This document shows, in pieces, positions 8,250 to 20,851 of a DNA stretch of 48,109 nt. How positions within the stretch are numbered: position 1 is the stretch's first letter; each line of letters starts with the position of its first letter. Made by a program: the position numbers and the translations under genes. The notes beneath the pieces were generated by a model that saw only the letters and a list, made by a program, of their open reading frames with translations, was not told where the DNA came from and made no database searches. Origin of the DNA: Singulisphaera sp. GP187 (GTDB taxonomy: Bacteria; Planctomycetota; GCA-002687715); contig CAMDTN010000018.1 in the NCBI GenBank assembly GCA_945907755.1, positions 1-48,109 on the forward strand, read 5' to 3'.

Positions 8250-9344
8250 TCAGGAATCGGCGGGCAGAGCGGCATCCAGCAGCGCTTCGGCATCGGCGAG
8301 GCGGTCGTAGATGCGCAGCGGAGCGCGGCGCAAGGTGGCTTCACTAAGCAAGCTGTGCACCAAGAACGGCAGCGCCACGGTGACATCGGTGCGCAGATAA
8401 ACGCTGGTGCTCTGCACGCATTCCGCAGAGGTCTTGCCCCAGGTGTGGCCCTCCCCTGCGGTGCACGACGACAGCGCCCCGTTGTCCACGACATCCACGC
8501 ACACTTGCACATCAATGTCGAAGCCTCGCGCTGACACGCCGAGGATCTGGTCCAGCAGCGGCTCGCCTTGCAAGGTGTAGTTCTTGGGCACGCCGCCACC
8601 AAAAATCCAAATGGCGCAATCCTTTTCGCGGCTCTGGCGGCACCAATGCTGCAGGGCGCCCATCTGATAAACATCGCGGCCTACATCGATGCGCAAACGG
8701 AAGGCGGGGTCGCGCCGTTGCAAACGCACCATGTTCAAGAAGATGCTGCCGTCTTGCACTGCGCCCGAAAAAATGGGCACGCCATTGCGGAAGCACGCGC
8801 CCAGCACCGTTGGATACGGGTTGCCCACTTCGTCTTCCAGTGCGGCCACCTGCCGTCCGAGTTCATAGTGAAACTCGGGCGTTGTCATGTCGCGCTGAAA
8901 CTCGGGGCGCTGCACGATGCGCGCGAAGAATCTGTCGGTTTCCAGCAGCGTCTCTTCGTCGAAACCCAAGTCGTAGATGCGGATGACTCGCTCTTCGCGC
9001 AACGCGATGTCGCCCGCGTTGGGGTCGATCTCGTGGATTACATAGCCCAGCAAGCGGTGAACATCGTGGTAGACATTCGCGCCCGTGGTGGTGAGGCAAG
9101 AGATGGCGCCGCATTCGATCAGCGGCACGATGCAACTGGTGCCCAATCCCGCAGGCGTCATGGCGCCGGACAGCGTTGCGAATACTGCGCAGTCATCTTC
9201 CAGCGATTTTTTCAGCAGCCGGTCGGCCTCGCGCATGCCGCGGCCAGCAAACGCTGGGAAGCGCGTTGATAGCAACTCGGAAAGCAATTCGCCCCCGGTG
9301 ATGGGCTGGGGCGCCACGGGACGCACGGATTCGTCGGCTGTCAT
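8250..9344 (-). CDS. Deoxyhypusine synthase family protein
   Basis: The product is 364 aa, the normal size for the deoxyhypusine synthase/homospermidine synthase fold. NAD-site motifs are visible: TTTGANVYHD (residues 85-94) and FGGGVPKNYTLQ (248-259). The C-terminal block EGHTWGK contains the Lys (K304) expected to form the imine intermediate with the aminobutyl group of spermidine. Archaeal and eukaryotic enzymes modify eIF5A. Most bacteria lack that substrate, and bacterial relatives are thought to act on polyamines or have unknown targets, so the substrate here is open. The enzyme should be cytoplasmic. The next gene is divergent, starting 85 nt away. Confidence 0.85.
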   Translation of the reverse strand: MTADESVRPVAPQPITGGELLSELLSTRFPAFAGRGMREADRLLKKSLEDDCAVFATLSGAMTPAGLGTSCIVPLIECGAISCLTTTGANVYHDVHRLLGYVIHEIDPNAGDIALREERVIRIYDLGFDEETLLETDRFFARIVQRPEFQRDMTTPEFHYELGRQVAALEDEVGNPYPTVLGACFRNGVPIFSGAVQDGSIFLNMVRLQRRDPAFRLRIDVGRDVYQMGALQHWCRQSREKDCAIWIFGGGVPKNYTLQGEPLLDQILGVSARGFDIDVQVCVDVVDNGALSSCTAGEGHTWGKTSAECVQSTSVYLRTDVTVALPFLVHSLLSEATLRRAPLRIYDRLADAEALLDAALPADS

Positions 9345-14767: not shown

Positions 14768-17521
14768 ATGAACAAAACTCTACTGCTCGTTGTTGTGTTC
14801 GCGTGTTCCCTGCCGCTCTTCGCACAAGAGACGAGCAAGGCCGATGCCGCTCAGATTGCGCGGCTCGAACGCGTTGAAGAACTGAGCGAGGATCTCGCCA
14901 ACGATCTGTTGGAAATGTCGGTGGCGGTGCGCGACAAAGACGCCGTCGCCCTGCGCAACTTCTTCGCGGAATCGCTGTTCGCCGCACCGTTCGCCTGCAT
15001 GCCGCAAGCATTGCAGCAGAAGGTGAAGTGGATCAGCCAGCGCGCGTGGGCCCCAGCGGAAGCCGATGGCGCCGCAGCAGAGCAGCGCGCCGTCAGCGGC
15101 GCAGTTTTCCATGAACGCTGGATGCAGATGCTGACTAACTTCGCCTCCATCGAAGATGTGCGCTTCAAGATGAAGGAAGGCGACTTCAACGAAGCAGGCA
15201 CAGCCAAAGTGCGCGTGGCCTTCTATGTCATCGGGCGCAACACGCAGCAGCAACGCGAATGGTTGCGCGGCAATGTTTGGGTGGAAGCGGCCAAGTCCGA
15301 GGGGCACTGGCGTTGGTCCAGCTACAAACCGTTGTCCATCGATTCGCTGGTGGCTACGCAAGACCTCTTCACGGATGTGGCCGCAAGCACGGGCCTCGCG
15401 CTGGAACTCCCGGCTTACCAAGGCGGCTACGCCTGGTATGGCGCGGCCACTGCAGATTTGAACAACGACGGCACGCTGGACCTCGTGGCCACCACCGGCG
15501 GACGCAATCAGATTCACCTTGGCGACGGCGCAGGGCGCTTCACCGACGCCTCGCAATCCAGCGGCTTTGCAGCCTTGGCCAACGGCCTCGGCCCGTTGCT
15601 GCTGGACTACGACCATGACGGCGATGTCGATGTGTTCCTCACCGCCATCGGCACGCAATTGCTGTTCGAGAATCGCATGGTGCCCGACGGCAAGCTGAGC
15701 TTTGACGATGTGTCCGCCAGCAGCGGTGTGGCCCGCGACGCCGTTGGTTTTTCCGCCGCCGCCGCCGATGTCAACAACGACGGCTTCGAAGACATTTATG
15801 TGTGCTCGTACAACCATTACGGCCGCGTGACGCCGAACTCATGGTTCAAGGCCACCAACGGCACGCCCAATCTGCTCTTCATCAACAAAGGCGACGGCAC
15901 TTTCCGCGAAGCAGCGAAGGAATGGGGCGTCGATGATCGCCGCTGGAGCTACGCCGCGCAGTTCGCCGACCTTGATCGCGACGGGCGCATGGATTTGTAT
16001 GTGGCCAACGACTTCGGCGAGAAGGCGTTATTCATGAATAAGGGCGACCATTTCGTGGATGAAGCGGTGGCACGCGGCGCGAGTGACCCCGGCAACGGCA
16101 TGGGTGTGTCCTTCGGCGACTTCGACAACGACGGGCACTTGGACATTCACGCCAGCAACATGTCCAGCACTGCGGGCAACCGCATCATCGGCCGCATTTA
16201 TGCGGGCTCCACCGCGGGCAACAATGTGCTGAAGAAACTTGCAGCAGGCAACAATTTGCTGCGCAACAAAGGCGACGGCACTTTCGAGGACATCACCGCG
16301 GCTATCGGCGGCTTTTCCGGTGGCTGGGCTTGGGGTGGCGGCTTCATCGATTGCGACAACGATGGCTGGAGCGATTTCTTCTGTCCCAACGGTTTCGTAT
16401 CGGGCCCTTCGATGAAGGACACTTGAAGCCACTTCTGGCGTCAGGTCGTGACGCTCACCAATGATCCCAAAGCTGAATCGGCACTACGCGATGATCAAAC
16501 CCGCCTCATGGGCGAAAAGGGTTTCTCGTTCAGCGGCTATGAACGCGATCCATTGTTCTTGAACCTTGGCGGCAAGAAGGTGCTGGATATTTCCGGTGTC
16601 TCTGGCGTTGATTCCATCAGCGACGGGCGCGCCGGTGTGTTCGCCGATTTCGACAACGATGGCGACACCGACATCTTCATGAACACCATTCAAGGCGATG
16701 CGCACATTCTTTTCCGCAACAATGTGGGCGCAGCAGCCGGCTGGGTGCGCGTCAGTTTGGAAGGCAACGCCAAGATCGGGCCCGCAGCATGGGGCGCGCA
16801 AGTGCGCGTGAAAACTCCCGTCGGCGTGCAAACCAAGTTGAAGAGTTGTGGCGAGGGCTTCCTTTCGCAGCACGACCCACGCTTGCTCTTCGGGCTGCCG
16901 CAAGACGGTGCAGCTGAGTGGATCGAAGTGTGCTGGCCAGGCGGCGCAGTAGACCGCTTCACCGGGCCGTTCAAAGCTGGCAGCGAAGTGCTGCTGCGGC
17001 CAGCGGCGAAGGAAGCGCAAATCATTTCGAGCAAACGCACCTGCCTCGCCGATCCGCCATCCGCCTCGGATCACGCGCTGCGGCGCTTGAAGCTGCGCCA
17101 AGGCGCACAGGTGCCGGACCTCGCCATCAGCGACAGCGCGGGCAAGGCCACAACGCTGCGTGCGGGCCTGCGCCCCGGCCGCAAGATGCTGCTGAACCTA
17201 TGGGCCACTTGGTGCACCAACTGCGCGGTGGAAATGCCGCTGCTCAGCAAAATGGCACCTGCGCTCACAGCCAAGGGCATCGATCTGTGCGGCCTCAGCC
17301 TCGACACGACTGCGGGTGTGGACATCGCTGCTTGGGCACAAACCAAGCAAGTCACTTACCCGCTGTTCCTAGGCGGAACTAACGCTGCCGCGGCGCTGTA
17401 TGCGAGCCCGCAGATCACCGTGCCGGTGACGATCCTCATAGATGCCAACGGCATAGTGCTGCAAGCATGGAATGGTTGGAACGCTGAAGTGGAAGCAGCC
17501 ATCAGCGCGCTTACGCGCTAA
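14768..17521 (+). CDS. Predicted selenoprotein: FG-GAP/CRTAC1-ASPIC protein with TlpA domain
   Basis: Reading TGA 16424 as selenocysteine gives 917 aa in one frame with Sec at residue 553. The order is: signal peptide (1-19, MNKTLLLVVVFACSLPLFA); a helical and NTF2-like N-terminal region (20-190); FG-GAP/VCBS calcium-loop repeats (DLNNDGTLD, DYDHDGDVDV, DVNNDGFEDI, DFDNDGHLDI); Sec in KDT-U-SHFWRQVV; another repeat (DFDNDGDTDI); an ASPIC/UnbV domain (about 655-745, GAQVRVKT, FGLPQDGAAEWIEVCWPGG); and a TlpA/thioredoxin domain with WATWCTNC (C816, C819). The protein should act outside the cytoplasmic membrane. All domains continue in the same frame after the TGA, and a SECIS-like hairpin follows it. 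AGAGG about 6 nt before ATG 14768 supports the start. The alternatives are a nonsense mutation or sequencing error, but no other lesion is seen in 2.7 kb. The redox role is inferred. Confidence 0.8.
16424..16456 (+). promoter_or_regulatory. UGA(Sec) codon and bacterial SECIS-like hairpin
   Basis: The in-frame TGA is at 16424-16426. A 10-nt spacer is followed by the stem GGCGTCA (16437-16443), the loop GGTCG (16444-16448) and the stem TGACGCT (16449-16455), giving six Watson-Crick pairs plus a G-U pair. The distance from UGA to the loop is 17 nt. The loop starts with two G and contains GGUC. The E. coli fdhF SECIS has the same GGUC loop at nearly the same distance from its UGA. Known bacterial SECIS elements need a G in the first two loop positions and roughly this spacing for SelB binding; both hold here. 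Confidence 0.75.
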
Positions 17522-17587: not shown

Positions 17588-20500
17588 ATGCACGACACAG
17601 CACGCATTCTGGTGATGTTTCTTTGTTTTGTCACCGCATTGCAGGCACAAGACAAGACCGAAGAAGCGTGGCGGCACGTCAACGCTGGCGTGGCGTTGCT
17701 GGAGCAATACAGCAACGAGAAAGCTGCGGTGGAGTTTCGCGCGGCGCTGGAGTTAGACCCGAAACTGAATGCGGCACGCATCAACTTGGCCATCGCGCTG
17801 CACCATGCGTCGCTGATCCCAGAAGCCTTGGCGGAAGCCTCGAAGGCAGCAGAAGCCGCGCCGGATTCCCCCCACGCGCACTATTTGGTGGCTTTGAATG
17901 CGCGCCAATCCAACGACTTGCCGCTGGCGCGCGCGTCGTTCGAGCGTGTCCACCAACTGGACCCAACAGATACTGCCACGCGCATCCACTTGGCACGGCT
18001 GTGCATGGAGGCGCAAGAGTTCCCTCGGGCTTTGGAATTGTTGACCGACGCCGCGGAGCGCGAACCCTTCAACACCACCGCGGTCTACAACCTCGGCATG
18101 ACCTTGCAGCGCTTGGGCCGCCGCGACGAAGCCAAACCATTGCTGCAACGCTTTCAGCAATTGCGCACCAGCGGCTACGCCACTGCGCTGGGCACTCAGT
18201 ATTTGGAAGCAGGCCGTTATGCAGCAGCGGTTACCGCTGACGCGCGCACGCAACCCTTCGTTTCAACCGGCGCCAGTGTGGCCCTCACCGTTCCAGAGGC
18301 GCTACGTGGTGCTGTGCCTGCCTGCGACGCCGCGAAACCCGCTGCGAAAATAAACCTCGCCGACATTGATGCCGATGGCGACGAAGACGCGCTGCTGTGC
18401 GGGCCTGACGGCGCGCGCGTATGGCTGAACACCGCGGGCAGTTTCAAAGCCGGCGCGCAATTGTTCGATGCTGCCACCTATGGCGCGTTGGCTGGCGACA
18501 TGAATGCTGATGGCGCGAACGACATCGTGCTCTTGACCGCAGCAGGCGTGCGCATCCTCTGCAATAGTGCCGATGGCTTCGTTGATGCCACAGCACAGGC
18601 GGGCTTCCCCGCCGCCCTCGGGCACTTGCACTGCGGCGCGCTGGCCGATGTTGACCACGATGGAGACTTAGACATCTTGCTGGGCGCCAGCGAAGGCGTG
18701 CAACTGCTGCGCAACAATGGCGACGGCACCTTTCTGGACATCACTGCAAATGCAGGTGTCGGCAACAAAGAAGCGGTGCATGCCATCGCTGCCAGCGATT
18801 TGGACAACGGCCGCGACATCGATCTCGTACTGGCACTGTCGAGCGGCGCCAGAATCGCCAAGAACCACCGCGACGGAACGTTCGCAGCAACAGCGCTGGG
18901 CACTCCTGCACAAGCAGTGCGCGTCTTAGCCATTGGCGACAGCAATAAGGACGGTTTCGAAGATCTCTTCCTTGGCGGTGAAGCGGCGGCGGAACACTTG
19001 CAAAGCAATGGGCGCGGCGGCTATTCCACCGTTTCCATGGCCATCGCTCACAGCGACACTGCACTGTTCACCGACATCGACAACGACGGCTGGCTGGATT
19101 TGTTGGTGCTGGCGGATGGCCGCGTGCTGTGGTGCCGCGGCGCCCCTGCTGGCCTGCAAGCTCCCGTTATTCTCAGTGGTGAAGCCACGCTTGCCACCCG
19201 CGCAATGGCAGCAGCGGACATCGATGGCGACGGCGACAGCGACATTGTGTGCGCGGATGCCAGCGCCCACCCGCAAGTGCTGCTGAACAGCGTCACCCCA
19301 AGCGCGCGTGCGCTGGAATTGTCGTTGACAGGGCGCGTGTCCAATCGCTCGGGCTTCGGCACCAAGATTGATCTGCGCGCAGGCAGCCTGACACAGAAAC
19401 TGGAAACAGGCAGCAGTTTTCCACCGAATAGACCCGCCGTGCCGCATTGTGGCCTCGGGAACAGAACGCAAGTGGACGCGGTGCGCTTGCTGTGGCCTTC
19501 GGGCAATGTGCAGGCCGAATTGCCAACGCGCACAACGCCGCTGCATTGGAAGATCGAAGAAGTGGATCGCAAGCCGTCGTCGTGCCCCAACCTTTACACA
19601 TGGAATGGGCACCAATTCCAGTTCATCACAGATTTCATGGGCGGCGGCGAAATGGGTGCGTGGGTGGAAGAGGGTTTGCGCAATTCTCCAGACCCTGAAG
19701 AATATGTGCGCATTCCGCCCGGGGCATTAGTGCCCCGCAACGGCTTCTTGGAATTGCGCGTGACCAACGAACTGGAAGAGGCGCTGTTCATCGATCATCT
19801 TTCGCTGCTCGCAGTGGATCACCCATCGGGCATCCATGTGTTCCCCAACGAAGGCATGAGCTTTGTGGCCCCTCGCCCATGGCAATTGCATGCGCTGAGT
19901 GATTTGCAGTCAGCACTACGCGTCACTGATTCTCTGGGCCGCGAGCACACGGACAGCGTGGCCGTTGTGGACCGCAGCAGCGCCGCCGAGTTTTTCCGCA
20001 CCGCCATTCGCGGGTTTTCCACAGCGCACTGGCTGCAATTCGAATTCGCAACCATCCCAGAACACCCTGTGCTGTTGCTCAGCGGCTGGACGGATTACGC
20101 CTTCAGCAGCGACACACGCCGAGCGCAGCAGGCGGGCTTGCAACTCAACCCACCGAGCCTCGAAGCACAGCAGCCTGATGGCTCGTGGCGCGTGGTGGAA
20201 AGCGACATCGGCATTCCGGTGGGCAGTCCGCAATCCTATTGCGTCGACTTGCACGGCAAGCTGCACCGCGGCGTGACACGCTTGCGGCTCAGCACGAATA
20301 TGTGCGTGCATTGGGACAGAATCGCACTCGCGCAAGGCCATCCAGAACTACGCCCGCAAGTCAGTCGCGCACTGCCGCACACGGCCAACCTTGCATGGCG
20401 CGGTTATTCCGGCTTGCGTCCGACAAGCGCTAACAGCACCGGTGGTTTCGACTATGCCCGCGTCGCCTGCGCAGCACAGTGGAAAACTTTCGCAGGATTC

Positions 20501-20851
20501 TTCACACGCTTCGGCGAAGTCAACTCGCTGCTGGATGCGGTGGATGACATCTTTGTCGTCAGTGCCAGCGGCGACGAAATCGCGTTGCAATTCCGCGAGC
20601 AAGATTTCCCAGCATTGCGCGCTGGCTGGACGCGCACTTGGATGCTGCATGCCGATGGCTTCAGCAAAGAAATGGACCCCAATTCCGCCACGCCCGACAG
20701 CTTGCTGCCTTTGCCATTCCACGGCATGAGCCGCTATCCCTACGGCAGCAACGAACACTTCCCCATGACGCCTGAGCGTGAAGCCATCATGCGACGGTAC
20801 AACACGCGCCACCTCCGCAGCCGCATCCCCGCCGCTGTACAGGCACGCTGA
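17588..20851 (+). CDS. Exported TPR/FG-GAP/ASPIC-UnbV repeat protein
   Basis: The product is 1087 aa. It has a signal peptide (MHDTARILVMFLCFVTALQA) and several TPR units over about residues 25-200 (for example AAVEFRAALELDPKLNAARI). FG-GAP/VCBS repeats follow over about 240-560, with calcium loops such as DIDADGDED, DVDHDGDLDI, DIDNDGWLDL and DIDGDGDSDI. An ASPIC/UnbV domain (about 575-660, FGTKIDLRAG, AVRLLWPSGN) precedes a roughly 430-residue C-terminal region beginning TWNGHQFQFITDFMGGGEMG, which is seen with CRTAC1-like proteins but has no function I can name. The protein is extracellular or periplasmic and probably a beta-propeller scaffold. It lies 66 nt downstream of the predicted selenoprotein gene and may be co-transcribed. 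No in-frame TGA is present. Confidence 0.8.
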   Translation: MHDTARILVMFLCFVTALQAQDKTEEAWRHVNAGVALLEQYSNEKAAVEFRAALELDPKLNAARINLAIALHHASLIPEALAEASKAAEAAPDSPHAHYLVALNARQSNDLPLARASFERVHQLDPTDTATRIHLARLCMEAQEFPRALELLTDAAEREPFNTTAVYNLGMTLQRLGRRDEAKPLLQRFQQLRTSGYATALGTQYLEAGRYAAAVTADARTQPFVSTGASVALTVPEALRGAVPACDAAKPAAKINLADIDADGDEDALLCGPDGARVWLNTAGSFKAGAQLFDAATYGALAGDMNADGANDIVLLTAAGVRILCNSADGFVDATAQAGFPAALGHLHCGALADVDHDGDLDILLGASEGVQLLRNNGDGTFLDITANAGVGNKEAVHAIAASDLDNGRDIDLVLALSSGARIAKNHRDGTFAATALGTPAQAVRVLAIGDSNKDGFEDLFLGGEAAAEHLQSNGRGGYSTVSMAIAHSDTALFTDIDNDGWLDLLVLADGRVLWCRGAPAGLQAPVILSGEATLATRAMAAADIDGDGDSDIVCADASAHPQVLLNSVTPSARALELSLTGRVSNRSGFGTKIDLRAGSLTQKLETGSSFPPNRPAVPHCGLGNRTQVDAVRLLWPSGNVQAELPTRTTPLHWKIEEVDRKPSSCPNLYTWNGHQFQFITDFMGGGEMGAWVEEGLRNSPDPEEYVRIPPGALVPRNGFLELRVTNELEEALFIDHLSLLAVDHPSGIHVFPNEGMSFVAPRPWQLHALSDLQSALRVTDSLGREHTDSVAVVDRSSAAEFFRTAIRGFSTAHWLQFEFATIPEHPVLLLSGWTDYAFSSDTRRAQQAGLQLNPPSLEAQQPDGSWRVVESDIGIPVGSPQSYCVDLHGKLHRGVTRLRLSTNMCVHWDRIALAQGHPELRPQVSRALPHTANLAWRGYSGLRPTSANSTGGFDYARVACAAQWKTFAGFFTRFGEVNSLLDAVDDIFVVSASGDEIALQFREQDFPALRAGWTRTWMLHADGFSKEMDPNSATPDSLLPLPFHGMSRYPYGSNEHFPMTPEREAIMRRYNTRHLRSRIPAAVQAR

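Follow-up and report, generated by a model that had tools for sequence, protein, structure and literature searches.

Putative exported selenoproteins that join a selenocysteine-bearing CRTAC1-type β-propeller to a TlpA-like thioredoxin domain

Many catalogued selenoproteins carry selenocysteine (Sec) in a thioredoxin-like fold. In the UGC-containing TlpA family, Sec lies within the thioredoxin motif itself (WAxxUGC), and this family is found, as are those of Haft and Tolstoy (2025), in Table 1 of PMC13188914, a 2026 inventory that covers 119 families of prokaryotic selenoproteins. That table contains no FG-GAP, CRTAC1, UnbV, or propeller entry. Here we describe a family in which a CRTAC1-type propeller, rather than a thioredoxin-like fold, is predicted to carry Sec. 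It is not among the deep-Sep families (PMC12013277), NCBIfam release 20 has no model for it and gives weak thioredoxin matches only, and the literature searched contained no paper joining selenocysteine or selenoprotein with ASPIC, CRTAC1, UnbV, or FG-GAP, although other papers or recent annotation could do so. Without an NCBIfam model, ordinary gene calling would break each such gene in two at its UGA and report a pair of false open reading frames (ORFs), and the ORF list for the 48,109-nucleotide stretch of Singulisphaera sp. GP187 DNA analyzed here (the window) splits the gene at 14768-17521 in this way. The features of this gene are as follows.

14768 to 17521, forward strand: putative selenoprotein gene of 917 codons with one in-frame UGA, from translation, Pfam, and homologues
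14768 to 14824, forward strand: putative hydrophobic export signal MNKTLLLVVVFACSLPLFA, cleavage putatively before Q20, assigned by eye
14846 to 15355, forward strand: N-terminal alpha+beta domain, residues 27-196, from predicted structure
15359 to 16723, forward strand: FG-GAP β-propeller, residues about 198-652, from Pfam and the fold match to CRTAC1
16424 to 16426, forward strand: UGA, very likely encoding Sec (U553), motif DTUSHFWRQVV, at the predicted N terminus of helix 553-562
16437 to 16455, forward strand: SECIS-like hairpin with a 7-bp stem and apical loop GGUCG (16444-16448), from comparative pairing
16787 to 16966, forward strand: UnbV_ASPIC domain, residues 674-733, from Pfam
17102 to 17461, forward strand: TlpA/ResA-like thioredoxin domain (AhpC-TSA/Redoxin), residues 779-898, from Pfam and fold
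17213 to 17224, forward strand: CTNC redox motif with C816 and C819, from sequence and conservation

Under the standard code the ORF runs from 14768 to 16426 and ends at the TGA at 16424-16426, while the read-through frame stays open to 17521. Translation with UGA as Sec gives a protein of 917 amino acids, with U553 and with WATWCTNC at residues 812-819, in which an N-terminal domain is followed by the CRTAC1-type FG-GAP propeller, the UnbV/ASPIC module, and the TlpA-like thioredoxin domain. A sequence-only reading of the window had placed Sec and the WATWCTNC site about 265 residues apart in one exported chain. This layout holds, with C816 located 263 residues past U553 and export of both modules predicted from the putative N-terminal signal that was recognized by eye.

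The full chain was modeled with AlphaFold2 from a 79-row alignment (mean pLDDT 92.9, pTM 0.92). Residues 1-23 have pLDDT below 50, and residues 27-196 are confidently predicted to form an alpha+beta fold; a Pfam search with these residues gave no match. The propeller and UnbV part matches murine CRTAC1 (9etn) with a Z score of 38.7 and an rmsd of 2.4 over 452 residues, and the combination of a UnbV_ASPIC module with FG-GAP repeats on a propeller fold places the protein in the CRTAC1/ASPIC-UnbV family. Sec553 starts a predicted helix (553-562) on the propeller. The C-terminal domain matches ResA/TlpA in fold, and its CxxC, cis-Pro position, and thioredoxin fold above the Pfam cut-off identify it as TlpA/ResA-like. 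A predicted helix (817-835) begins at this motif, with C816 just before its first residue and C819 just after, and E822 and the cis-Pro position, P886, are conserved too. Domain packing in the model is confident, and a pTM as high as 0.92 over 917 residues suggests that the TlpA domain takes up a definite position relative to the rest of the chain.

Several lines of evidence indicate that the UGA is very likely decoded as Sec. UGA closes many normal genes of the window, such as GatA, which rules out genome-wide UGA recoding and makes the recoding at 16424 site-specific. None of 2000 shuffles keeps the 364-codon frame past the UGA free of stops, and the two alternative frames of this region contain 12 and 8 stops. 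In three same-genus comparisons dN/dS is about 0.14-0.20 before the UGA and 0.19-0.33 after it, so that purifying selection also acts past the UGA; selection and conservation on both sides of the UGA also rule out a two-gene or frameshift reading. The 2.68 Mb genome, which is 97% complete, encodes a full set of Sec machinery: a tRNA-Sec (78.2 bits against a cut-off of 47, anticodon tca) that adjoins selA on contig 67, SelA (498 bits), SelB (324.6 bits), and SelD (242 bits), whose gene is spread across two contigs and contains an in-frame UGA of its own. UGA stands at the same site, with conserved coding on either side, in about 150 distinct homologues, which come mainly from Planctomycetota and Acidobacteriota. 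A few relatives, some of them in genomes where SelA was not found, have Cys at this position instead, in forms such as DYCTxFW[CRT]. Among genomes with low-scoring stop-free members, a SelA search found nothing in four (G231, G103, G015, and G295) and a sub-threshold trace in G251; G084, in which SelA is present, is the exception.

The UGA is also followed by a SECIS-like hairpin that spans 11-29 nt past the UGA. Its G-containing apical loop begins 17 nt past the UGA, a loop geometry that we take to be similar to that of the E. coli fdhF SECIS. At least six of the seven stem pairs form in 91 of 106 distinct Sec sequences, a degree of pairing that none of 1000 column shuffles reaches, and in Sec genes the stem shows compensatory changes at its wobble positions, where several kinds of base pair occur. 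Non-Sec homologues that encode the same following peptide form at least six of seven pairs in 3 of 35 cases, no better than shuffled sequences. Similarly, the apical loop starts 17-18 nt past the UGA in 112 of 124 Sec genes versus 6 of 39 non-Sec genes. Folded as a single sequence, the window hairpin is no more stable than its shuffles (z -0.6 to 0.2), so that the decisive evidence is comparative. An Rfam scan of the window returned nothing at gathering thresholds.

If the UGA at 16424 were instead a true stop, translation would end after 552 residues, and the sequence beyond it would be a separate gene or a decaying remnant. UGA is after all the usual stop in the window, and a downstream ORF could begin with GTG at 16448. 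That start, however, would lie within the conserved helix, and a true stop is hard to reconcile with UGA at the identical site in homologues from several phyla, with purifying selection past the UGA, with SECIS-like covariation confined to Sec genes, or with complete Sec machinery in the genome. We consider termination at this codon extremely improbable.

Upstream of the gene are gatA and gatB. The downstream neighbor (17588-20851), in the same orientation, encodes a TPR/FG-GAP/UnbV protein with no in-frame UGA and is possibly a relative of the selenoprotein gene. Elsewhere in the window, a deoxyhypusine synthase-family gene at 8250-9344 on the reverse strand (Pfam DS, E 3.8e-53) is notable in a bacterium.

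The family is widespread. The best 80 relatives among GTDB species genomes come from Planctomycetota, Acidobacteriota, Verrucomicrobiota, Latescibacterota, Gemmatimonadota, and Aminicenantes, and nearly all have U in the Sec-site motif D-[DK]-[LT]-U-S-x-[FY]-W-R-x-V. An order-level search gave nine further loci whose match contains a single UGA, in all cases at the same site. Matches were found in 108 of 392 genomes of a phylum sample, the richest with at least six (six candidates were scored for each genome), and 101 of 154 genomes from one planctomycete class contain members. A 4.8 Mb Verrucomicrobia metagenome-assembled genome (G394, the source of L081) has 17 UGA-containing members, a very large expansion of Sec paralogues if it is not due to contamination. 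Many planctomycete members have C-terminal tails of over 550 residues, similar in length to that of L097, where TPR repeats follow the TlpA-like domain. Three genomes of the same order as the window (G001, G002, and G003) have SelA, and the A2 profile search gave no match in them at E 1e-25.

The core of the window protein is 65-74% identical to Acidobacteriota proteins (Pyrinomonadaceae and others; L052-L061) and about 41-48% identical to members found in other genera of its own family and order. Because of this higher identity, and because it nests among the Acidobacteriota proteins in the tree, the gene was likely acquired by horizontal transfer.

The final set comprised 203 distinct rows, sampled around the clade of the window gene, with U at the Sec column in 155, C in 9, and other residues in 39, the last including three remote relatives without the motif. 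In rows taken from farther out in the superfamily, the TlpA domain is mostly absent. We compared the residue at the Sec column with the presence of a CxxC 220-310 residues downstream. Of 147 Sec rows in which this could be determined, 124 have the CxxC. In the clade around the gene, therefore, it is not the case that most lineages have Sec without the TlpA domain, an outcome that would have spoken against the sequence-only reading, and an arrangement that had been described as unusual from the single sequence turns out to be the norm for a large family. Conversely, in a 177-row set, the CxxC is missing from every one of the 36 close homologues whose site holds E, A, N, R, Q, D, or H, though most of these retain a thioredoxin domain. 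The Cys homologues of this clade include one with the CxxC (L119) and one without (L217). Among the first 26 rows with neither Sec nor Cys, 10 have lost the thioredoxin domain and 16 retain a thioredoxin profile match. Where the domain aligns in non-Sec rows, the two Cys positions are mostly D and S, giving DxxS or SxxS for CxxC, and all 26 have Pro at the cis-Pro position. For comparison, the Sec rows with CxxC have Pro at this position in 124 of 124 and the active-site Glu in 113 of 124.

A test of independent pairs, on a quick tree from which the motif and the TlpA domain were excluded, gave six concordant pairs, none discordant, and one without a difference (p=0.031), and the median for a wider row set was similar. 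These statistics are modest because few independent losses exist. The same pattern could arise if the two sites were joined by common ancestry only, with joint loss reflecting relaxed constraint in paralogues that are losing function. This explanation draws on the small number of independent events, just 6 to 8, and on the frequent presence of Sec and non-Sec paralogues within one genome. The non-Sec proteins, however, are not pseudogenes: their frames are open, the propeller core and cis-Pro are retained, and loss is confined to the redox residues. Decay would also leave unexplained the pattern of local cysteines described below, and we regard shared ancestry as an unlikely sole cause. The joint retention and loss thus favor the proposal, made from the window sequence, that the TlpA Cys pair reduces or resolves the Sec, but they do not prove it; comparison of homologues supports a functional connection of the TlpA-like domain with Sec.

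Sec rows without the CxxC offer a second view of this link. Within positions -3 to +6 of Sec, a Cys is present in 11 of 23 such rows compared with 0 of 124 rows with both Sec and CxxC (Fisher p 1e-10, uncorrected for relatedness). The local-Cys rows fall in three clades, with motifs DGUxC[LV]W, DTUSxFWC, and DCUTFYWR. In the tree, the DTUSxFWC pair (Ux4C; L237 and L238) branches within a group of window-gene relatives that bear the TlpA domain, which indicates that this pair lost the domain and gained the Cys secondarily. The other 12 Sec rows have neither a CxxC nor a Cys near Sec, and their partner may act in trans; together with L217, the Cys row without CxxC, they indicate that a partner in cis is not obligatory. 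One clade of Sec paralogues (L029, L130, L230, and L232), of which L029 and L130 are from the genus of the window organism, has kept Sec with a thioredoxin domain that is Cys-less.

We propose that Sec553 is probably the catalytic selenol of an exported, SelB-decoded protein, regenerated or resolved by the CxxC in cis. In this mechanism, the SelB-decoded chain would be exported across the cytoplasmic membrane with Sec553 at the N terminus of a helix inserted between blades of the CRTAC1-type propeller, where the helix-capped, redox-active selenol could react with an oxidized substrate. The CxxC of the TlpA-like domain would then regenerate or resolve Sec by converting a selenenyl-sulphide to a disulphide, and would itself probably be recharged by a DsbD/CcdA-type membrane reductase; a DsbD_TM gene is present in the genome. 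In relatives without the thioredoxin domain, the Cys beside Sec (CU, UxC, or Ux4C) may often serve as the resolving thiol. Candidate substrates are peroxide, an oxidized thiol or methionine, or a ligand bound to the propeller, and neighboring genes of related loci included no shared partner that would give a clue to the substrate.

Alternatively, the main role of Sec could be within the propeller, for example as a metal or cofactor ligand, with the TlpA-like domain protecting or repairing the selenol or delivering metal/thiol chemistry. TlpA delivers such chemistry to Sco/CoxB, and TlpA-type domains reduce the copper-site thiols of these proteins. The structure matches include 4txo and 4txv, TlpA-type/Sco/CoxB mixed-disulphide structures, FG-GAP metal-binding loops close to the Sec site are invariant, and roughly half of the CxxC-less Sec rows have no Cys nearby, all of which would suit such a role. 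However, the 79-row alignment contains no conserved His or additional Cys ligand set near Sec, and the Cys found beside Sec in three clades that lack TlpA is more in keeping with a resolving thiol. We therefore view a primarily metal-binding or cofactor-binding Sec as doubtful. With a catalytic selenol as the preferred reading, and with slightly less assurance than for the mechanism itself, we think it fairly likely that these proteins form a class of exported selenoenzymes that is large but uncatalogued and is spread over Planctomycetota, Acidobacteriota, Verrucomicrobiota, and neighboring phyla. In this class the Sec active site would lie on a β-propeller instead of a thioredoxin fold, and it would be served by the chain's own thioredoxin domain or, as an alternative, by a local Cys. 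The poorly understood CRTAC1/ASPIC family would thereby gain a testable chemistry.

The window protein can be compared with four known systems. Like murine CRTAC1, it has an FG-GAP propeller followed by a UnbV/ASPIC module. The 9etn match has neither Sec nor a thioredoxin domain, whereas the window protein has a thioredoxin domain and very likely Sec, and the sequence alignment between the two is broken over query residues 466-616, the site of the Sec helix. With NHLRC2 it shares the fusion of a thioredoxin-like domain to a β-propeller, an NHL propeller there and an FG-GAP propeller here; the abstract on NHLRC2 (PMC6107167) mentions no Sec. With TlpA, ResA, and DsbE (CcmG) it shares the CxxC, the Glu past the motif, the cis-Pro position, and the fold, but the window version is the C-terminal domain of a 917-amino-acid propeller protein, and it misses the NCBIfam equivalog cut-offs for ResA (54.9 against 170), TlpA (53.6 against 230), and DsbE (30.7 against 123). 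Finally, the UGC-containing TlpA selenoproteins also combine Sec with a TlpA-type domain. In contrast to their Sec-containing thioredoxin motif, the motif here is all Cys, and Sec is predicted to sit on the propeller 263 residues away.
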